Shown: piece by piece, positions 11,672 through 26,502 of the stretch
How the letters are laid out: each line of letters starts with the position of its first letter
Position numbering within the stretch: position 1 is the first letter of the stretch
Virus record (IMG/VR): IMGVR_UViG_3300031977_002915
Span: 1-34,530 of that record
Reading direction: 5' to 3' (one strand)
Length of the DNA: 34,530 nt
Source: a virus
The notes under the pieces: model-generated
Database searches by the model: none
What the model was told of the DNA's origin: nothing
Seen by the model: only the letters and a program-made list of their open reading frames with translations
Made by a program: the position numbers and the translations under genes

Positions 11672-12256
11672 TCAAGCCTTAGCGGTCTCGCGCTCCCTCG
11701 GCTCAACATCTTGTGTGATCGGCTCGAGCTCGTCCTGATCCAGTCGAACCGGGGCTGGACGACCGAACAGGGTCCAGATCAGCGCGACCCGCCCCTCGGG
11801 CGTCATCTCCTGGACCGTGGCGATAAACCCGGCGCCGACGCCCGACAGCATCTTGACCCGGTCGCCGGGCTGGTAGCGGTCGTGTTTCTTGTGGGTGACG
11901 TCGAACCGGCCTGCGATCTCGGCCTCATGCAGGTCGCGGACCACGTCGCCGCTCATGGCCAGAGGTTCGGCGGCGCCCAAGAAGGCGATCACCCCCTCGA
12001 TCTTCCGAACGACACTGAACTGAGGCTTGGGGCCCGGCAGATAGGCAAACATGTAGCCCGGCAGCAGCGGTTGGCGCCGGCGCATCCGCCTGCCCTTCGG
12101 CGGGGTGTGCCAGACCACCTCGTGCGGGATGAAGGTGTCGACGTTCTTGTCGTTCAACCGCTCCTGGATCCTGGTCTCCAGGCCGGTGATGACGTTGACG
12201 ACGTACCACGCCAGGTCCTGGCCAGGGCGAACGGTCTCGGCCTTGAACTCGGTCAT
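11672..12256 (-). CDS. NusG/RfaH-like transcription elongation factor
   Basis: This 194-residue protein has the two-domain NusG plan. An NGN domain (WYVVNVITGLETRIQERLND, then PLLPGYMFAYL, FSVVRKIEGVIAFLG) is followed by a KOW domain (YQPGDRVKMLSGVGAGFIAT, ending in RVALIWTLFGRPAPVRL). NusG paralogues bind RNA polymerase and act as elongation or antitermination factors, often operon-specific (RfaH, LoaP). The ATG at 12256 overlaps the upstream stop as ATGA, so longer upstream readings are rejected. It is the last gene of the replication operon and precedes hairpins and then the head operon, the position of lambda Q. An antiterminator role for late genes is inference. Confidence 0.85.
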   Translation of the reverse strand: MTEFKAETVRPGQDLAWYVVNVITGLETRIQERLNDKNVDTFIPHEVVWHTPPKGRRMRRRQPLLPGYMFAYLPGPKPQFSVVRKIEGVIAFLGAAEPLAMSGDVVRDLHEAEIAGRFDVTHKKHDRYQPGDRVKMLSGVGAGFIATVQEMTPEGRVALIWTLFGRPAPVRLDQDELEPITQDVEPRERETAKA

Positions 12257-12465
12257 CGCTGCTGCGCCTCCTCGCGGATCGTGTCGGGCCGAACGGCCGG
12301 CTGTCGGTAGGTGTCTCGGGCGTGAAGGGCGGCCCGCATCGCGGCTCTGAACTGCGCCTTGATCCGCCCCGGCGCCCGGGCCCATCCGACCCTGTTGCAG
12401 GCCGGCACGGTGTCGATCTCCAGGCGGTCGAAGAAGGCCGCGGCCATGTGTTCGTCGAGGCTCAT
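12253..12465 (-). CDS. Small hypothetical protein, replication operon
   Basis: This 70-residue protein (MSLDEHMAAAFFDRLEIDTV, then ARAPGRIKAQFRAAMRAALH) has ATGA overlaps at both ends, with the DUF1376 gene upstream and the NusG-like gene downstream. That is strong evidence that it is translated. It is mostly helical and basic in the second half. No family is recognised. Confidence 0.7.
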   Translation of the reverse strand: MSLDEHMAAAFFDRLEIDTVPACNRVGWARAPGRIKAQFRAAMRAALHARDTYRQPAVRPDTIREEAQQR

Positions 12466-17925: not shown

Positions 17926-18554
17926 GCGGCAATCTCTCTGTTCAGGGCTTCGTTCAGCCGCTCCAGATCCACGTCGAACAGCTCGGCGAAATCTTCGGCG
18001 CTCAGGCCCTTGGCGATCTGCTGGCGGGCGCGGGCGAGCAGTTCCGGGGTGATGGGCTTGAGGCGGATGATCTGGACGCCGTTGCCGACGTTCTGCAGCG
18101 TGGCGCCCCGGGGGATGGCGCGACCCTTAGGCCTGGCTTCCTGGCGCCTGCGGACCTCTGCGATAGTCTTCGGGGGCGCGACAGGCGCGATGGGGGCGGC
18201 TTGGCGCTCTGGGATAGCCTGAGGGCGCGCGCCGGGCGCTGGCGGGGGCTCATGGCGCTCGGCAAGCGCCTTGGTCCTCAGCGCATAGCGGATCGCCGCC
18301 TCCGCCTCGGCTTGCGCCCTGGCGAAGGCGACAGGATTGGCGTTACGGGCCGCAGACACGACGGTCGAACGCAGGCCAACCGACTTGCACGCGGACTTCT
18401 GCATGACGCCGCATGTCGAAACGATGGCGGCGACGGCCGGCGCCAGTGATCGCCGCGCGGAACCCCAGCCGTTGGAGATGGCCACGACGGGGCAATCGCC
18501 GAACGAAGCCGCCGACGCGATGATGGCCCGGGCGTAGAGATCAGCCGAGGGCAT
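17922..18554 (-). CDS. Unknown protein with HTH-like segment, between GcrA and methyltransferase
   Basis: This 210-residue protein has an Ala-rich N-terminal region containing an HTH-like stretch (AAIVSTCGVMQKSACKSVGL then RSTVVSAARN, about 42-72), a proline/arginine-rich middle (about 100-150) and a helical C-terminal segment (ELLARARQQIAKGLSAEDFA, about 171-190) that also looks helix-turn-helix-like. The start overlaps the GcrA stop as TGATG and the end overlaps the methyltransferase start as ATGA. It may be a DNA-binding partner of GcrA. No named family is recognised. Confidence 0.65.
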   Translation of the reverse strand: MPSADLYARAIIASAASFGDCPVVAISNGWGSARRSLAPAVAAIVSTCGVMQKSACKSVGLRSTVVSAARNANPVAFARAQAEAEAAIRYALRTKALAERHEPPPAPGARPQAIPERQAAPIAPVAPPKTIAEVRRRQEARPKGRAIPRGATLQNVGNGVQIIRLKPITPELLARARQQIAKGLSAEDFAELFDVDLERLNEALNREIAA

Positions 18555-19090
18555 CAGGCGACCCTCCGAAGAGAGCGTTCCAGATCCGCCGCGCTGCGCT
18601 TTGGCTTGCCGGAATAGAACCGGGCCGCGTGTGCCTGGCAGTAGGGCGTCTCGTCCTTGACCGGGTGACAGCAGTAGAGGGTGTCGGCGCCGTCTCCGCT
18701 CACGGGCGCACAGCACTCGCCTAACTGGCGGCTGAACAGCGGCTTGGCGAGGGTGACGTCCTCGACATGGCTTGGCGGCTTGAAGCCCGGGACCGACTTG
18801 GCCTCGGCGATGTGGAGCGCGTTGCGGCCGGCGCCCTCGCGCTTCACGGCGGGGGCCTTCAGGCCAATAGCGCCGAAGCTCGGCTTGCGCGGAGGGGCGA
18901 CCTTCTTTGGGGCCTTGGCCGGGGGCGCGGCCTTCGCGCCTCCGATGGACCCTAAGCCCATGCGATGGACCTTGCCGATCACGGCGTTCCGGCTGTGGCG
19001 GCCGGTAAGCTTTTTCGCGATCTGGGAAGCCGAAAGGCCGTCCTTGTGGAGCACCTTCAGGCGCTCGGTGTCTTCGTCGCTCCAGGCCAT
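18554..19090 (-). CDS. gcrA: GcrA-family cell-cycle regulator (phage copy)
   Basis: This 178-residue protein has the GcrA N-terminal DNA-binding helix-turn-helix almost intact (MAWSDEDTERLKVLHKDGLS, then ASQIAKKL, SRNAVIGKVHRMGL, residues 1-45), an Ala/Pro/Lys linker, and a C-terminal Cys-rich part (ECCAPV, LYCCHPV, PYCQAHAARFYSGKP) matching the C-terminus that contacts sigma-70 in host GcrA. GcrA activates promoters carrying CcrM-methylated GANTC sites in Caulobacter relatives. The ATG at 19090 overlaps the VRR-NUC stop (TAATG), so upstream extensions are rejected. Encoding it beside two methyltransferases suggests reprogramming of host transcription; that is inference. Confidence 0.88.
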   Translation of the reverse strand: MAWSDEDTERLKVLHKDGLSASQIAKKLTGRHSRNAVIGKVHRMGLGSIGGAKAAPPAKAPKKVAPPRKPSFGAIGLKAPAVKREGAGRNALHIAEAKSVPGFKPPSHVEDVTLAKPLFSRQLGECCAPVSGDGADTLYCCHPVKDETPYCQAHAARFYSGKPKRSAADLERSLRRVA

Positions 19091-20998: not shown

Positions 20999-21057
20999 GC
21001 GAGGCTCCCCGCTTCGGAAGCCGCCGCTCGCCCCACATGCGGAGCCGGAAGCCGTGC

Positions 21058-21495
21058 TCATGCGCCGAACTCCCGGACTTCTGGAGGCACCAGCCGGAGG
21101 CGACCGCCATCCACGCTCCCGCGTGCAAGGCGAGCCGCGCGATGGGCCGCAATCTCGCGGTCCAGCGACGCCATGTGGGCGCGCTGCTGCTCATATTCAT
21201 GCTCCAGGGCTGCGAGGCGCGAGGCGCCGATGACGGGTTCAATCGTCCGGTCGGCCCAATCCCACCCGAAGGCGCCGACAAGGGCCTCGTAGGTGTCGAG
21301 CGACATGCTTCCGAGCATGGCGTTCTGGATGGTCCGGTAGTCCAGACGGTAGGGGGTTTTGTCGCGGATCAGGCGGGACAGCTCTTTCGCCGTCAGACCG
21401 CGCTCATCCATCTCCTGCCGAAGATGCGTCGCCGCGCGAGCGCGAAGCGACACAACTTGGGTTCTGCGTTCCATGCGATGCACAACCAACTCCAT
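21058..21495 (-). CDS. XRE-like HTH protein with coiled coil
   Basis: This 145-residue protein has an N-terminal Cro/C1-type helix-turn-helix (RAATHLRQEMDERGLTAKEL, SRLIRDKTPYRLDYRTIQNA, DTYEALVGAFGW) and then a coiled coil (ALEHEYEQQRAHMASLDREI). The ATG at 21495 is preceded by AGAGGT at 8 nt. It is the first gene of the leftward block below the hairpins at 21774-21847. A possible sigma-70-like promoter upstream is not convincing. It probably regulates early transcription. Confidence 0.7.
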   Translation of the reverse strand: MELVVHRMERRTQVVSLRARAATHLRQEMDERGLTAKELSRLIRDKTPYRLDYRTIQNAMLGSMSLDTYEALVGAFGWDWADRTIEPVIGASRLAALEHEYEQQRAHMASLDREIAAHRAARLARGSVDGGRLRLVPPEVREFGA

Positions 21496-21542
21496 CAGAT
21501 TGACCTCTGACGGATGGCGGCCAGCACGGAGACGCGGCGCGG

Positions 21543-21755
21543 ATGGGAGACCGAACCGAGATCGACACTGATGGGATAGCGATAGCTCTGGGCGCGTGGG
21601 AGCACGGCCAGAGAGCGGCGGACGAAGCGCGGACGAAGGCTTGGGAGGCCAACGCCGCAAGACGGTTCATGGAAGCGATCGGGATCGAGGGGGCGCAGCA
21701 ACGACCGCGCCCCCTGCCCCACCATCGGCCGGGCCGGGGGAAAACCGACCGATGA
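21543..21755 (+). CDS. Possible small rightward protein
   Basis: This 70-residue frame (MGDRTEIDTDGIAIALGAWE, then helical and Ala-rich) is followed by a strong hairpin at 21774-21811, as expected for a real gene end. Its third codon positions are less GC-rich than those of its neighbours and the ribosome site is weak. Treat as possible. Confidence 0.38.
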   Translation: MGDRTEIDTDGIAIALGAWEHGQRAADEARTKAWEANAARRFMEAIGIEGAQQRPRPLPHHRPGRGKTDR

Positions 21756-21773
21756 CAGCTCATGCGAAATTCC

Positions 21774-21811
21774 GCCGGGCGCAGGGGACTGGAAACCCCG
21801 CGCCCGGCTTT
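21774..21811. terminator. Strong hairpin with short T-run
   Basis: GCCGGGCGC-A-GGGG pairs with CCCC-GCGCCCGGC (13 bp, one bulged A) around an 8-nt loop and is followed by TTT. It can terminate rightward transcription and, less well, leftward transcription from the HNH gene. Confidence 0.6.
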
Positions 21812-21847
21812 CGTGCGTCCACGCAGACTGGCTATTGTGGACGCACG
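21812..21847. repeat. Perfect 11-bp inverted repeat
   Basis: CGTGCGTCCAC (21812-21822) and GTGGACGCACG (21837-21847) are separated by 14 nt, directly next to the previous hairpin and 3 bases from the HNH stop. It is either a second terminator hairpin for the leftward transcript or a dyad binding site. Confidence 0.6.
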
Positions 21848-21850
21848 AGG

Positions 21851-22213
21851 TCATGCTGGCGCGCTTTCGGCGTCGGCAAACAGGTCGAATTGCGGGGACT
21901 TCCGGCGCCGGGTCGAGGCCGCGTTGGCGGCGTGGTGCTTGGCGTCATAGGTCAGGTGACACCGCTGGCACATGGCCCGCAGGTTCGGGCGGTCGCCCGG
22001 CTCACCGCAGTTTTCCGGCACATGATCCAGGTGCGCGACGGTCAGAACCACGCGCGATCCGGTCACGGGATGCGGCTTGCCATTCTCAGCCCGGCAGTCC
22101 TCGTAGAAACCGGGCGAGCCCTCGCATACCCATCCGGCGGCCTCGCGGACCTCAAGGCTGATCGCCTTCCAGTCCTTCGGATAGCGCGCGCGGTTTTCCG
22201 GGCGGATCGGCAT
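21851..22213 (-). CDS. HNH endonuclease family protein
   Basis: This 120-residue phage HNH protein has the core VLTVAHLDHVPENCGEP (AHLDH holds the His-His), PNLRAMCQRCHLTYDAKHHA (the Asn and final His), and zinc cysteines at CEG, CRA and CQRC. Such proteins act as nicking or packaging nucleases or are mobile-element derived. It lies 2 bases after the Cro-like gene and is probably transcribed from the same leftward promoter. Confidence 0.82.
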   Translation of the reverse strand: MPIRPENRARYPKDWKAISLEVREAAGWVCEGSPGFYEDCRAENGKPHPVTGSRVVLTVAHLDHVPENCGEPGDRPNLRAMCQRCHLTYDAKHHAANAASTRRRKSPQFDLFADAESAPA

Positions 22214-22215
22214 GG

Positions 22216-22431
22216 TCAGGCCGCCTCTTGGTCGGAGGCTTCGCGCTTGAGGGCGGCGGCGGCGGCCAACTCCTCAAGGGTGGCGATGCTCGCCTTCGCC
22301 ATCGCGGCCCAATACTCAGCCGGAATGCTCCCGCGTTGAGCCCAGGACCGCACGGTGTGCACGCTGACGCCAAGGTGATCCGCGAGGGTGTCGATCCCGG
22401 CCGCCCTGATGATTTCTTTGTGGGTTCGCAT
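22216..22431 (-). CDS. Cro-like HTH repressor
   Basis: This 71-residue protein has a single helix-turn-helix (IIRAAGIDTLADHLGVSVHT, VRSWAQRGSIPAEYWAAM) and a helical tail. It diverges from the CI-like gene across an operator cluster, the classic cro position. A promoter TTGCAT-17-CATCAT on the minus strand would start transcription within a few bases of the ATG, implying a leaderless or near-leaderless mRNA. Confidence 0.75.
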   Translation of the reverse strand: MRTHKEIIRAAGIDTLADHLGVSVHTVRSWAQRGSIPAEYWAAMAKASIATLEELAAAAALKREASDQEAA

Positions 22432-22439
22432 GCCCGCAT

Positions 22440-22479
22440 GATGCGCAATGCATCACGGTGATGCAAGTGCCATTTGCAT
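22440..22479. promoter_or_regulatory. Operator cluster between cro-like and cI-like genes
   Basis: Overlapping dyads: GATGC-GCAAT-GCATC (22440-22454), TGCATCAC-G-GTGATGCA (22449-22465, a perfect 17-bp site) and ATGCAA-gtgccat-TTGCAT (22461-22479). The shared half-site is TGATGC/GCATCA. The leftward promoter elements TTGCAT and CATCAT are embedded in these repeats, so repressor binding would block it. Confidence 0.65.
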
Positions 22480-22505
22480 TACGGGCGTCGATACCCTCCC
22501 CGGCC

Positions 22506-23129
22506 ATGAGTGCAGAGGCTGACAGGTTGCGCCAAGCGCGCGAGGCGAAGGGCTATTCAACCGCGAAGGCGGCTGCGGAGGCCATGGGCGTAGCCGTCCC
22601 AACCTACATCCAGCATGAAAACGGGACGCGCGGGCTCCCGGCGAAGCGGGCCGATCGCTACGCTCGGTTCTTCGGCGTCCGGCCGGAATGGCTGCTGTAC
22701 GGCAAGGCGAACGGCGAGCCCGCCGCGCCAAAGCCTCAAGCGGCCAGGACGGTCCCGCTCATCTCATGGGTTGCCGCCGGCGCCCTCGGCGATCCCTCAA
22801 CGCAGATCCCCGAGGGGACTGAGACAATCGAGATCAGCGGCCTGCCGGCGGGGGATTATTTCGCCACCCGGGTGCTTGGCGACTCGATGGACCGGTTTTC
22901 GCCGCCCGGCTCGCTGATCCTGGTCAATCGTGCCGAGACGGAGCTTAGGCGGGGCCGTCGCTACATCTTCAGCTTGCGCGGCGACACAACTTACAAGCGT
23001 TGGGAAACGGACCCCGACCGCCTTGTGCCGGAAAGCACAAACCCGTCACACGAGCCGATATTTCCGAAGTCAGACCGAGACTGGTCGGTAATCGGTCGGG
23101 TGCGGATCACGCTCTTTGATGAGCTGTAA
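22506..23129 (+). CDS. CI-type phage repressor, HTH plus S24 peptidase
   Basis: This 207-residue protein maintains lysogeny. The N-terminal XRE helix-turn-helix is ADRLRQAREAKGYSTAKAAA then VAVPTYIQHENGTRGLP. The C-terminal LexA/CI-like S24 domain has the Ala91-Gly92 self-cleavage site (WVAAGALG), Ser127 in GDSMD and Lys164 in TYKRW. RecA-stimulated self-cleavage would induce the phage after DNA damage. The ATG at 22506 is preferred to longer in-frame starts that would run through the operators. It faces the Cro-like gene. Confidence 0.88.
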   Translation: MSAEADRLRQAREAKGYSTAKAAAEAMGVAVPTYIQHENGTRGLPAKRADRYARFFGVRPEWLLYGKANGEPAAPKPQAARTVPLISWVAAGALGDPSTQIPEGTETIEISGLPAGDYFATRVLGDSMDRFSPPGSLILVNRAETELRRGRRYIFSLRGDTTYKRWETDPDRLVPESTNPSHEPIFPKSDRDWSVIGRVRITLFDEL

Positions 23130-23150
23130 GGCCTGGGGAGGGCTGAGAAA

Positions 23151-23624
23151 ATGAAGCTGACGCCGTGGTTTCTCAACTTTGATTTCGGCGGGCGAGCGCG
23201 CAGGTCGCACTATTGGGCCAACCTTGGCGCGTGGCTGCTGGTGGCCGCGGTCTTCCTGGCCGTCGCCGCAGCGGTAGCGCCCGACGCGCCCGCAACCCTC
23301 GCCCCCGCCGCTGACGCCGTAGCCCCCGCGCCCTCGCCGGCGCCGGCCGCTGAGGAGCCTGCGGCGGATGGAGGGGGCGGCGGGCTAATCGGCTTCGCTC
23401 TCTTTATCGCCCTGCTGCTGGCCGCTGTAGACGGCTTTGCGATGGTGTTCCGTCGTGCACACGACACCGGAAAAAGCGGCTGGGTGATGCTGCTGCTGTT
23501 TATCCCGCTCGTGAATTTGCTGCCGCTCTACTGGTTGATGATCGAGGATTCGCAAGAGGGCCCGAACAAATACGGCGCGGCGGTAAAGGCGTTTTATCAG
23601 CCGCCGGCACCGGCCGTGCCATGA
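23151..23624 (+). CDS. DUF805 family membrane protein
   Basis: This 157-residue integral membrane protein has an N-terminal motif RARRSHYWANLGAW, three hydrophobic segments (about 26-45, 80-100, 108-132) separated by an Ala/Pro-rich loop, and the DUF805 ending RRAHDTGKSGWVMLL, VNLLPLYW, with the terminal NKYG. It starts 21 bases after the repressor and is probably co-expressed in the lysogen, so it is a candidate lysogenic-conversion or superinfection-exclusion gene. Confidence 0.82.
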   Translation: MKLTPWFLNFDFGGRARRSHYWANLGAWLLVAAVFLAVAAAVAPDAPATLAPAADAVAPAPSPAPAAEEPAADGGGGGLIGFALFIALLLAAVDGFAMVFRRAHDTGKSGWVMLLLFIPLVNLLPLYWLMIEDSQEGPNKYGAAVKAFYQPPAPAVP

Positions 23625-23863
23625 CTGACGGTGGCGGCGACCGCCTGGCCGTCATCGAGGGCAATATCCACGCCCAATGGGCCGTGATCCTGCAACTCCT
23701 CCGCGCCTTGGAGGGCCGCGCCGCCCTTACCCACGTCGAGACCGACGCCATGATTGAGGGTGTCCTGATGACCCTAGAGAACCGAGGGCCTGACGACGAG
23801 GTCAGTCGCGCGGCTCGCCGGGCCGTTGAGCGCCTGGCGAAGCAGTTGCGAGATCGGCCCTGA
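23621..23863 (+). CDS. Small helical hypothetical protein
   Basis: This 80-residue protein (IEGNIHAQWAVILQLLRALE, DAMIEGVLMTLENRGPDDEV) starts with an ATGA overlap on the DUF805 gene. Its 3' end overlaps an oppositely read gene (23802-23990) by 62 bases. No family is recognised. It may be produced from the lysogen. Confidence 0.6.
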   Translation: MTDGGGDRLAVIEGNIHAQWAVILQLLRALEGRAALTHVETDAMIEGVLMTLENRGPDDEVSRAARRAVERLAKQLRDRP

Positions 23864-23990
23864 AGTCCGGTAGGGCCGCAAGGAAGGCGTTCGCCCGCTC
23901 ATCGAACGTCGCCTCCCGCGCGCCGTAGGCTCCCGGCTGATATCGGCGCGGGCTCCCGCCCCCTCGCCCCCTGCGCTTGAACCGTGACAT
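23802..23990 (-). CDS. Small basic leftward protein
   Basis: This 62-residue protein has a very basic N-terminus (MSRFKRRGRGGGSPRRYQPG) and a helical C-terminus (FDERANAFLAALPDFRADLA). AGGAGGT 5 nt before the ATG is one of the strongest ribosome sites in the window. It is read away from the second operator cluster and antisense to the end of the 23621 gene. It may be a small RNA- or DNA-binding early regulator, loosely N-like in position; the function is not shown. Confidence 0.55.
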   Translation of the reverse strand: MSRFKRRGRGGGSPRRYQPGAYGAREATFDERANAFLAALPDFRADLATASPGAQRPGEPRD

Positions 23991-24024
23991 CTGGACCTCC
24001 TGCGGATTGGTGTCAGACGGTTTA

Positions 24025-24076
24025 GCATCGCATGATGCATTTTGCACTTGCCATCATATGATGCGATCTGCATTAT
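24025..24076. promoter_or_regulatory. Second operator cluster and rightward early promoter
   Basis: GCATC-GCAT-GATGC (24025-24038) and the perfect palindrome CATCATATGATG (24052-24063) share the TGATGC/GCATCA half-site with the cluster at 22440-22479. A promoter TTGCCA (24048-24053), 17 bp, CATTAT (24071-24076) reads right toward the gene at 24103, with the palindrome inside its spacer. The same repressor probably controls both sites. Confidence 0.6.
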
Positions 24077-24102
24077 CTCTCCATCGACCTGGAGAGACAG
24101 CC

Positions 24103-24531
24103 ATGCAAACCCTCGACGACCACATTGCCCACGTCCGGCGCTTCGAAGACGCCCAACGTGCGAACCGCAAGCCGACCGGCGTGTGCTGGTCTGGGATGCA
24201 GGGCCCGGCGCCTGCTCGGTCGGATGCTGAGATCGTGCGGGTCGGGACTGCGGCTTACGAGCGGTCCCAGAAGCTGGCCACCGAGCCGCGGTTCGTCCTG
24301 ATCGGCCATCTGGCTGCGATCCAGGGCCTGGGCAACGCGGGCTGGTCGGCGGCTGCTGAACGGGTCCGCGAGGCCAACAGCCGGGGATTCCTGGCGGCGG
24401 ACGGCTCTCCGAACGTCGACGCCATCGCCCGGGCCTTGAAGCTTCTCAACCCCATCCCTGGCATGGCCGCCGTCGCCGCGCGCGAAGTCCTGGCCGACAT
24501 GCTGATCGTTCAGATGGACGAGGCGGCGTGA
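24103..24531 (+). CDS. Hypothetical protein, first gene of rightward early operon
   Basis: This is a 142-residue helical protein (VGTAAYERSQKLATEPRFVL, AERVREANSRGFLAADG, MAAVAAREVLADMLIVQMDE). The ATG at 24103 has GGAGAG upstream and lies about 20 bases after the predicted start of transcription. No family is recognised. First-expressed phage genes of this kind are often host-takeover or anti-defence proteins; no direct support is seen. Confidence 0.65.
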   Translation: MQTLDDHIAHVRRFEDAQRANRKPTGVCWSGMQGPAPARSDAEIVRVGTAAYERSQKLATEPRFVLIGHLAAIQGLGNAGWSAAAERVREANSRGFLAADGSPNVDAIARALKLLNPIPGMAAVAAREVLADMLIVQMDEAA

Positions 24532-24725
24532 TGGCGGGCGCGCTCATTTGCGAGTTTGGCTGCATCGACGAGTGCATCGGCGCTTGCAGCGATCCCGACG
24601 ACCTCGATGACGCCGACCGCGACGAGTACGCGGATTGCGGCCTCATGGCGGACGGCCAATGCACCAAGGTCGGCTCGGAAGAGTGCGACTGGGAATGCGG
24701 CGCTCTGCGTGCGGAGGCTTCGTGA
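24531..24725 (+). CDS. Cys-rich small acidic protein
   Basis: This 64-residue protein has nine cysteines, likely metal-binding. Its C-terminal motif C-GLMADGQ-C-TKVGSEE-CDWEC is closely matched in the protein at 30001-30348 (GVQCRLAGTEDCDWEC). TGATG overlaps occur on both sides. Function unknown. Confidence 0.65.
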   Translation: MAGALICEFGCIDECIGACSDPDDLDDADRDEYADCGLMADGQCTKVGSEECDWECGALRAEAS

Positions 24726-24961
24726 TGGGCTCCACCGCCGACTATCTCGCCCTCGCCGCCGCCCTTGAAGACCACGACCGGAAGGAGCGGATCGCCAACC
24801 TGATCCGCGCGGCGTGGGCGTTCAAGCTGGCTGACCGAGCGATGATCGATCTGACCTCGCTGGCCCTGCGGTGCGGGATGCCTGCGTCCGAGCCCTCGAT
24901 CCTGGCCTGGGTTCGCCAGCGGGTCGCCACCTACCGGCAGATGACGCGGGGGGCGGCATGA
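24725..24961 (+). CDS. Small helical hypothetical protein
   Basis: This 78-residue protein (DYLALAAALEDHDRKERIAN, LIRAAWAFKLADRAMIDLTS) is probably all-helical. It overlaps the neighbours by TGATG and ATGA. No family is recognised. Confidence 0.6.
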   Translation: MGSTADYLALAAALEDHDRKERIANLIRAAWAFKLADRAMIDLTSLALRCGMPASEPSILAWVRQRVATYRQMTRGAA

Positions 24962-25218
24962 CCGAAGACGAAGCGAAGACCAAGGTCTGCCATCGCACCT
25001 TGGCGGCCCTCGCGGTCCCCGAAGTCGGCTCGTTTCATCAGTTCGCCAACTGCATCGGCTCGGCCTGCATGGCTTGGCGGGAAACACGAGCTACCGAACT
25101 TTACCACAAGATCGACGGGACGCGGATTGGCGCCCGCGAAATCTACATGCGGGGGAACGAGGAAAAGCGCGAGCGCGTCGCGGGTGGCTACTGCGGCCTC
25201 GCGGGTCCGGTCCAATGA
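24958..25218 (+). CDS. Small hypothetical protein
   Basis: This 86-residue protein (EDEAKTKVCHRTLAALAVPE, NCIGSACMAWRETRATELYH, ending RVAGGYCGLAGPVQ) has conserved-looking cysteines at VCH, NCIGSAC and YCGLAG. ATGA overlaps occur at both ends. Similar short proteins occur in other phage early regions; the role is unknown. Confidence 0.6.
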   Translation: MTEDEAKTKVCHRTLAALAVPEVGSFHQFANCIGSACMAWRETRATELYHKIDGTRIGAREIYMRGNEEKRERVAGGYCGLAGPVQ

Positions 25219-25343
25219 CCCTGGCCCGCATCGCCCTCCTCCTCACCATCGCCGCCGCCCATCCCGGCTGGTGGTCGATCCCCCTCATCGTGGTCGCGGC
25301 GGTCCTGCTGCTGTCGGCCTTCATTCCGAAGCTGGAGGCCTGA
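25215..25343 (+). CDS. 42-residue membrane peptide
   Basis: Nearly all of it is hydrophobic (RIALLLTIAAAHP, SIPLIVVAAVLLLSAFIP), forming one or two short membrane segments. The ATGA overlap with the upstream gene supports translation. It is a candidate inner-membrane microprotein. Confidence 0.55.
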   Translation: MTLARIALLLTIAAAHPGWWSIPLIVVAAVLLLSAFIPKLEA

Positions 25344-25345
25344 CT

Positions 25346-25576
25346 ATGAGCCGACACCCGACACCCGCCCGCGAAGGCCACTGGTGGGCCAAGCTGCGAC
25401 TGCACGACAACGCCGACCTCAACTCGGTCAACTGGGAAGTCGTGCAGGTCTTCGACAACAACGGCGAGGGCGAGTTCGCCTTCATGGCGTCCGTGCCTGG
25501 GATCGAGGGCGCTCAACCCATCGACGCCTTTGTCTGGGGGCCGCACGTCCCGATGCCTGAGGATCTGCGGTCATGA
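25346..25576 (+). CDS. Small hypothetical protein
   Basis: This 76-residue protein (EGHWWAKLRLHDNADLNSVN, WEVVQVFDNNGEGEFAFMAS, PIDAFVWGPHVPMPEDL) looks like a compact beta-rich fold of the kind found in phage accessory proteins. GGAGG lies 8 nt before the ATG. No function is assigned. Confidence 0.6.
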   Translation: MSRHPTPAREGHWWAKLRLHDNADLNSVNWEVVQVFDNNGEGEFAFMASVPGIEGAQPIDAFVWGPHVPMPEDLRS

Positions 25577-25935
25577 GCCGCCGCTACACCCACACCCTCA
25601 GCCTGAGCATCGGCGGCGACACGCCGACCTGGGAAGGCGAGGCCACCGTCTCGTTCGAGGTGAACCCCGAGGAGCCGGAAGTCGGCCCGACCTACGCGCA
25701 CGGCGGCCTTCCCCGCGTTCCAGCCGAGGTTGTCGATGTGACCGTCACCCACATTGACGGCGAGCCGGTGATGCAGCGCGACCACGGCCTGCTTGAGGCC
25801 CAGACGCTCGAAACGCACGTCGAATGCTCAGACGCGCTGATGGCCGAGCTGTTGGAGGCCGCGAGCGAGATCGAGGCCTGGCGCGCCGACGAAGCCGCCG
25901 ACTACCGCCGCGAAGCCACGCGGGAGGCGTTCTGA
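25573..25935 (+). CDS. Hypothetical protein
   Basis: This 120-residue acidic protein is beta-rich over about 5-68 (YTHTLSLSIGGDTPTWEGEA, VVDVTVTHIDGEPV) and ends in a helical tail (DALMAELLEAASEIEAWRAD). ATGA overlaps the gene upstream and TGATG the gene downstream. No family is recognised. Confidence 0.6.
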   Translation: MSRRYTHTLSLSIGGDTPTWEGEATVSFEVNPEEPEVGPTYAHGGLPRVPAEVVDVTVTHIDGEPVMQRDHGLLEAQTLETHVECSDALMAELLEAASEIEAWRADEAADYRREATREAF

Positions 25936-26093
25936 TGGACCCCGAAGACGACGAGGATTTCGACATGCTCTGCGGCGACTGCGGCGAAGGCCTCTACGCC
26001 GAGGAATCCCACAACGTCGAGTGCTTTGAACGGTTCGCCACAATCCTGTGCGCGGGCTGCTTTGAGGACCGCTGTGAAGAAGAGGAGGCCTGA
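25935..26093 (+). CDS. 52-residue zinc-ribbon protein
   Basis: Two pairs, CGDC (13-16) and CAGC (38-41), with additional Cys residues suggest a zinc ribbon. The protein is very acidic. TGATG overlap with the upstream stop. Function unknown. Confidence 0.58.
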   Translation: MDPEDDEDFDMLCGDCGEGLYAEESHNVECFERFATILCAGCFEDRCEEEEA

Positions 26094-26096
26094 CCC

Positions 26097-26369
26097 ATGG
26101 CCAATCTGACAGTCGTTCGCCCAGCCCATGGGCCTGCCGCCGAAACCATCGCCGACAAGATCAAGGCCCTGCAGTCGCAGATGGCCAGCCTGACCGCTCA
26201 GCAGTCGGGCGAGCTTCGCGGCGCCATGCTGGAGGCCCAGCGCATCGCCGCCGACGTGGCCAACTGCCCAGCCCACCCGCCTGGGGTCCGCGACCTCGCC
26301 CGGCGCCTGAGCGACGACCTCGCGAACACGGCGCAGACCATCGACGCCATCATGGCGAGGGCCGGCTGA
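26097..26369 (+). CDS. Small helical hypothetical protein
   Basis: This 90-residue protein has a coiled-coil-like middle (ADKIKALQSQMASLTAQQSG) and helical ends (VRDLARRLSDDLANTAQTID). It begins 3 bases after the zinc-ribbon gene. No family is recognised. Confidence 0.6.
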   Translation: MANLTVVRPAHGPAAETIADKIKALQSQMASLTAQQSGELRGAMLEAQRIAADVANCPAHPPGVRDLARRLSDDLANTAQTIDAIMARAG

Positions 26370-26476
26370 TGCGCCTCGCCATCGGCTTTGCCGCTTACGC
26401 CCTGTTCTTCCTGATCGTCGGCCTGGCTGTCGGCTTCATGTTCGACGTCGGGGCCTGGATCGGCCGGGCGCTCTGA
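26369..26476 (+). CDS. 35-residue single-span membrane peptide
   Basis: MRLAIGFAAYALFFLIVGLA begins a frame with one clear transmembrane helix (about 4-25). Its ATG overlaps the previous stop as TGATG. Together with the peptide at 25215-25343 it is one of two tiny membrane proteins in this operon. Confidence 0.5.
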   Translation: MRLAIGFAAYALFFLIVGLAVGFMFDVGAWIGRAL

Positions 26477-26502
26477 ACCCCAACCCCAGAAGGAACACCA
26501 CC

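Follow-up and report, generated by a model that had tools for sequence, protein, structure and literature searches.

The virus record IMGVR_UViG_3300031977_002915, analysed here over its whole length of 34,530 nucleotides (nt) and referred to as the window (all coordinates refer to this full stretch), probably carries a lambda-type lysogeny switch that works through two operator pairs, with predicted leaderless regulator messages and a predicted hairpin in readthrough RNA. Divergently transcribed repressor and cro-like genes are located around the first operator cluster (cluster 1), while similar operators occur again at the other lytic promoter (cluster 2), with the repressor operon between the two (Table 1). 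The operator unit consists of two 17-bp dyads, 26 bp apart from start to start, and is found twice in the window. The set of three operators typical of lambda was not found, each set having two.

A sequence-only reading of this DNA had noted TGATGC/GCATCA dyads flanking the lysogeny genes. They are present at both positions and both clusters are real, but the description had to be refined, as each cluster is made up of an operator pair in which one member has a degenerate inner half (AAGTGC/GCACTT) running into a -35 element. In both clusters most of a -10 element falls in the outer half of one operator, and the odd inner half GCACTT of the other enters the -35 element TTGCNN. Cluster 2 repeats cluster 1 in inverted orientation, the lytic promoter of each being directed away from the repressor gene, and cluster 1 read leftward can be aligned without gaps to cluster 2 read rightward. 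O1 is the single perfect copy of TGATGC-N5-GCATCA in the window, and a search with one mismatch adds only O2'. The bare TGATGC hexamer is not enriched (23 occurrences in the window versus 20.4 expected), and its plain count was rejected as uninformative.

A position matrix was constructed from 18 cluster 1 sequences of other phages, the window being excluded and the seeds being chosen with the window motif known. It scores 47.4 at 22481..22439 (minus strand) and 39.2 at 24033..24075 (plus strand), while the top score in 300 dinucleotide shuffles of the window was 14.8 (mean 0.3, standard deviation (sd) 3.5). The paired-dyad composite, present twice, is far beyond chance. In the direction of the lytic promoter, GCACTT is preceded by G in cluster 1 (22471, in O2) and usually by T in cluster 2 (24043, in O1'). 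Some of the cluster 1 seeds were anchored on this G, which may serve the repressor promoter.

Conservation was evaluated in 24 phages, including the window and Caulobacter phage DMCA (PQ480021). These were matches of repressor and Cro searches chosen for a recognisable cluster 1; the start geometry of cro and of the repressor gene played no part in the choice. Seventeen came from the 34 loci found with the repressor helix-turn-helix (HTH) domain (L030-L041, L046-L048, L051 and L058 out of L030-L063), and the remaining seven are the window, L010, L011, L094, L096, L099 and L101; 11 further loci from the search that gave L094, L096, L099 and L101 are contigs already included. L056 and L060 are outside the 24, and L064-L093 are outside the analysis. 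L042, L044, L045, L059, L061, L062 and L063 have other operators or none recognisable, and the matrix has found no match in L009 and L109 and one weak match (15.7) in L008.

A second cluster is present in 23 of the 24 phages at a distance of 662-5836 bp from the first, and in 21 of these 23 it is directed away from the repressor gene by matrix score. The longest distance, 5.8 kb, belongs to the L031 phage, where cluster 2 was found with extra sequence (L110). Several minus-strand open reading frames (ORFs) of up to 400 amino acids (aa) are located between the two clusters of L110 (378-6297). Cluster 1 together with the adjoining 22 nt shows a median identity of 58% (maximum 78%) among phages of equal spacing. 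Recent copying therefore does not account for the fixed features. An exact DNA pattern was found in 12 viral loci, only two of which (L021 and L028) have clusters scoring above 14, the other ten having none. In bacterial genomes, an exact pattern with the operator spacing occurs in 3 of 298, and scanning has found a cluster only in the control G007 (L112), so that pattern is rare in the sample.

Outside the 24 phages, AAATGC-type operators were observed at cluster 1 of L049, L050, L052-L055 and L057. A second operator pair with a TTGAC-type -35 could be recognised by eye in L049, L053, L054, L055 and L057, and L043 also seems to have two operator pairs. The half-sites across these six more distant relatives (L043, L049, L053, L054, L055 and L057, 7.0-7.8 kb) are AAATGC-like or CTATGC-like.

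The outer triplets of the half-sites vary between phages, TGA, TAA, TTA, CTA, GTA and ATA being the main variants. Mantel tests on 21 of the 24 phages (L031, L058 and L101 were left out, having no entry for both clusters) have shown that these triplets match between the two clusters of the same phage (r=0.76, 0/10000 permutations). They also track helix 3 of the repressor (r=0.62, 0/10000; 0.61 when the remainder of the HTH is controlled for) and do not track the Cro helix (r=0.23, 680/10000; 0.07, 2898/10000 with the repressor helix held constant). Since the half-sites agree between the clusters and covary with the repressor helix, one repressor probably reads both. The pairs of helix and half-site are TYIQHENG with TRATGC, TYTQHENG with TAATGC, TYAGHENGH mostly with CTATGC, TYYGHENGH with GTATGC and TYLQHESG with TTATGC. 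There are exceptions to this code, as TGATGC sites go with TYNQHEND in L099, and CTA occurs mixed with TTG and CAA in L047.

The layout suggested earlier, similar to the right and left operators (OR and OL) of lambda, is borne out by the repressor operon placed between two clusters, by the second cluster in nearly all phages and by the covariation, with the same protein probable at both. Its stronger version, according to which repressor dimers at both clusters form an octamer and loop out the intervening 1.6 kb in the manner of lambda CI, with long-range cooperation, is doubtful. The window repressor does carry a Peptidase_S24 domain along with the HTH, as in the self-cleaving S24 (LexA/CI-like) class of repressors (Pfam), and this is the class of domain by which CI forms higher oligomers. 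Two operator pairs separated on the kilobase scale, paired in 23 of 24 phages, also resemble the sets about 2.3 kb apart that lambda CI links, as described in PMC5880393. However, the distance between the clusters is loosely constrained, and the layout is kept in nine relatives with short repressors of 143-162 aa (L035, L036, L037, L046, L047, L051, L094, L096 and L099); the three of these that were scanned (L035, L036 and L046) gave an HTH match and no S24 match. Local repression is enough, as both clusters overlap the promoter next to them, and the second cluster is fully explained without looping because the early promoter needs repressing. Nor was a separate third operator seen in the window at up to two mismatches; a degenerate one may be missed by this search, an extra TGATGC at 22459 overlaps the cluster 1 pair, and overlapping sites with three mismatches exist at 22459 and 24040. 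The layout thus does not require looping, although phages with an S24 repressor, the window among them, may use it. The short repressors retain the HTH that reads the operators; as no S24 match was found in the three scanned, induction in such phages may differ from SOS cleavage. The repressor frame of L058 is 223 aa long.

The leftward promoter had been suggested to give an almost leaderless cro mRNA, and the promoter geometry fits this: the cro start codon follows the -10 element by 6 nt in 18 phages, 7 nt in four and 8 nt in two, i.e., by 6-8 nt in all 24. In the window, the predicted transcription start (+1) of cro is the A of its start codon. On the opposite side of cluster 1, the TA past O2 is the sole invariant dinucleotide among the 24 nt tallied in the 24 phages, and the repressor ATG is located at offset 22 in 17 of them and at offsets 23-25 in the other seven (offsets 20-27 were examined). 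If this TA is the beginning of a -10 element, the repressor RNA begins at, or within about 3 nt of, the AUG, and the repressor message also looks leaderless or near-leaderless. In phage PY54 both cI and cro RNAs begin at the AUG according to rapid amplification of cDNA ends (RACE), as reported in PMC4488713. Leaderless mRNAs number 375 in Caulobacter, where they are translated about as well as others (as given in PMC4117421), and 171 in S. meliloti (as given in PMC3616915). The geometry combined with these precedents makes a leaderless cro message plausible and would extend this to the repressor.

The early promoter is one of two promoter-like sites in 21500-25500, where 0.3 would be expected. 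Its +1 was set at 24083 by the same spacing from the -10 element; this is an A following pyrimidines, and an A is found there in 14 of 22 phages. The position is relevant for an inverted repeat in the early leader, whose 5' arm ends at the predicted +1 and whose 3' arm holds the Shine-Dalgarno sequence GGAGAG (24091-24096). The predicted fold of the window leader reaches -11.7 kcal/mol with the arm versus -2.0 kcal/mol when taken from +1 (first 7 nt removed), and shuffling of the arm gives a mean of -5.1 kcal/mol with 0/200 shuffles as stable.

The hairpin was evaluated in 22 phages (21 of the Mantel set and L110, representing the L031 phage), the arm being defined as the 10 nt following the operator. 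Pairing of the arm with its own leader averages -10.9 kcal/mol versus -7.9 kcal/mol (sd 0.45) when arms and leaders are re-paired among phages, with 0/5000 re-pairings as low. Ten control 10-nt positions showed no such effect of the own partner (lowest 804/5000). When the arm alone is shuffled, 16 of the 22 leaders stand out at the 5% level or below. A Shine-Dalgarno-like stretch is paired in the folds of all 22 leaders, weakly in L038, and other stems of -8.4 to -19.5 kcal/mol persist without the arm in L035, L037, L046, L051, L096 and L099.

Cluster 2 starts only 17, 26 and 36 bp past the repressor stop codon in L033, L030 and L032, respectively, a gap that can scarcely hold a terminator; frequent readthrough is therefore to be expected, unless the polymerase is halted by bound repressor. 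A simple terminator scan found none on the plus strand between 23863 and 24033 in the window. As the 5' arm lies mostly upstream of the predicted transcription start, the blocking hairpin is predicted in readthrough RNA only. The simplest reading would be that the ribosome binding site is hidden in readthrough RNA and left free in RNA started at the early promoter. An unlikely alternative takes the repeat for a DNA site of another regulator or for a hairpin that stabilises the early mRNA at its 5' end: its arms do straddle the start site, itself a prediction, but the distance between the arms ranges from 4 to 44 nt, which is unusual for a protein dyad, and the 5' arm begins 0-4 nt past the last base of the -10 element, too close for it to be fully transcribed from the early promoter.

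Several observations weigh against the switch as described here. The cluster 2 sequences of L048 and L058 score slightly higher on the opposite strand, and L101 has no second cluster by matrix, with a weak dyad pair at its position 2536. The Mantel test removes shared ancestry in part only. A good -35 element is not seen by eye in the repressor promoter, the best candidate having a spacing of 19 bp; its absence would fit positive control by the repressor. The start codons of the early genes were set by eye in three of the 22 phages (L035, L037 and L096); with starts picked by rule, the own-partner pairing test also gave 0/20000. The L038 leader is less stable than most of its arm shuffles (193/200 as stable), and the leaders of L030, L046, L047, L096 and L099 are not significant singly.

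We propose the following operation of the switch. Repressor dimers would occupy O1/O2 and O1'/O2'. Since each pair covers a -10 element with one operator and reaches a -35 element with the other, both divergent lytic promoters would be shut off. O2 sits just upstream of the repressor -10 element, so repressor at high levels can be expected to limit its own synthesis. Cro, whose message is predicted to be leaderless, presumably acts at these operators against the repressor promoter and could well recognise the constant TGC core. The position of cro beside cluster 1, and the fact that Cro and CI use common operators in phages of the lambda type, would agree with sites that are chiefly Cro operators, with the repressor binding elsewhere or at cluster 1 only. 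This is very improbable, since the bases of the outer half-sites vary with the helix of the repressor and not with that of Cro, which is nearly constant, a contrast also seen at each cluster alone. The repressor message, predicted to be leaderless or nearly so, could continue past the cargo genes and reach the early operon. In such readthrough RNA the Shine-Dalgarno sequence of the first early gene would be locked in the hairpin, while RNA initiated at the early promoter would wholly or largely lack the 5' arm.

The likeness to lambda includes the repressor operon with accessory genes located between operator sets and the repressor gene reading toward the second set. It extends to polarity: cro leads the replication-side operon here, with recombination genes on the other arm, just as replication genes are behind cro and recombination genes on the other arm in lambda. 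The lambda cro mRNA has a leader, whereas that of this phage is predicted to be leaderless. The other differences are two operators per set in place of the two sets of three in lambda (as described in PMC5880393), TRATGC and related half-sites, and a repeat pairing an arm with the Shine-Dalgarno sequence of the early leader. Judging by sequence, the switch resembles lambda-type switches and by gene order belongs with them. Rhizobium phage 16-3, an alphaproteobacterial phage, has two operator regions, OL and OR, for one C repressor; its operators are of the ACAA-N4/6-TTGT type, unlike the half-sites of the window. In N15, the sites of the CB repressor are OR, located between cB and cro, and OL, located upstream of repA (as reported in PMC4488713). 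The telomere phages N15, phiKO2 and PY54 are not among the repressor relatives listed (20 of 35 phage records).

By analogy, the putative leaderless pair has its precedent in the immB region of PY54, where the cI and cro starts come from RACE while here they are predicted from promoter geometry, and the hairpin has its precedent in T4. Long upstream RNAs of T4 gene e (lysozyme) hide the ribosome binding site in a hairpin, the 5' part of which is missing from RNA started at late promoters close upstream (as described in PMC3014915). The T4 device separates early from late expression, whereas here the hairpin would separate lysogenic readthrough from lytic initiation.

Phage DMCA is the only phage record matching Cro. 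Its repressor is 55% identical to that of the window and its Cro 66% identical over 44 aa; both clusters, the leaderless geometry (cro gap of 8 nt) and the early-leader repeat are present as well, while the cargo between the clusters (2.2 kb) is different. The DMCA record names the repressor, labels cro as hypothetical and has only coding sequence features in the stretch examined. No publication on DMCA was found in the literature search. The search, mainly at the title and abstract level and with thin coverage of subscription journals, found none on this operator family, on this combination of features or on such a hairpin in a temperate phage.

Table 1. Features of the predicted lysogeny switch and its surroundings in the window
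Feature	Position	Strand	Details
cro-like gene, 71 aa	22216..22431	-	start codon 22431-22429; Pfam PF07022, 2.4e-8; matching start position in relatives
cro promoter (predicted)	22438..22466	-	-35 TTGCAT (22466-22461), 17 bp, -10 CATCAT (22443-22438); 6 nt to ATG
operator O1, cluster 1	22439..22455	no strand	TGATGCGCAATGCATCA; covers most of cro promoter -10
operator O2, cluster 1	22465..22481	no strand	AAGTGCCATTTGCATTA; inner half overlaps cro promoter -35
predicted repressor -10 (TANNNN)	22492..22497	+	TA 11-12 nt past O2, invariant in 24/24 phages
repressor, 207 aa	22506..23129	+	HTH_3, 8.2e-9; Peptidase_S24, 4.2e-15
DUF805 protein, cargo of the repressor operon	23151..23624	+	Pfam, 4.4e-23
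small ORF, 80 aa	23621..23863	+	no family match; overlaps the 3' end of the DUF805 gene
possible small ORF, 62 aa	23802..23990	-	strong AGGAGG ahead of ATG; faces the repressor operon beside cluster 2
operator O1', cluster 2	24033..24049	no strand	TGATGCATTTTGCACTT; inner half touches early promoter -35
early promoter (predicted)	24048..24076	+	TTGCCA - 17 - CATTAT; predicted +1 24083
operator O2', cluster 2	24059..24075	no strand	TGATGCGATCTGCATTA; covers most of early promoter -10
inverted repeat of the early leader	24076..24097	+	TCTCTCCA / TGGAGAGA; arms 24076-24083 and 24090-24097
first gene of the rightward early operon, 142 aa	24103..24531	+	no family match

Between the clusters, the sequence-only reading had listed the repressor, DUF805 and a small gene, all of which are there; the minus-strand ORF 23990-23802 has to be added. 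GCTAAAC at cluster 2 is a candidate leftward promoter element for this ORF, its spacing not being conserved by eye. No viral relatives were found for the 62-aa product, nor for the DUF805 cargo by peptide pattern, and six cargo proteins from three phages matched no defence family. Rfam has no match in 21000-26500. Among solved structures the repressor has no sequence relative, and the Cro profile matches a Cro protein weakly (3bd1, E=0.71).

The leftward operon on the cro side codes for an HNH protein (phrog_1571, 1.2e-29), GcrA, DNA methylases (by eye), a DnaB helicase (1.2e-62) and a NusG-like protein, and the rightward operon for a PDDEXK protein (DUF3799, 7.4e-16) and RecT (2.1e-5). The phage-encoded GcrA cell-cycle regulator (18554-19090, minus strand, PF07750, 3e-22) has a counterpart annotated on the cro side of DMCA. 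The NusG-like protein (11672-12259, minus strand, PF02357, 1.1e-15) is encoded near the end of the cro-side operon, before a gene that looks by eye like a terminase gene, and is a possible late-gene antiterminator.

Overall, the window and its relatives appear to have a lambda-like switch whose operator code can be read; the literature search found no comparable study of these phages. The joint variation of helix and half-site constitutes a candidate specificity code, which could predict which phages share immunity. As DMCA infects Caulobacter vibrioides CB15, a laboratory species, these predictions can be tested. On balance we lean towards the view that this phage family, at least one member of which infects Caulobacter, guards its early operon twice, by the repressor at two operators and by a hairpin present in readthrough RNA only, and that with leaderless regulator messages the 5' end of the RNA decides the translation of the repressor, Cro and the early genes. 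If this is true, the hairpin would illustrate a means by which early genes stay silent in the lysogen of a phage that has scarcely any space for a terminator.

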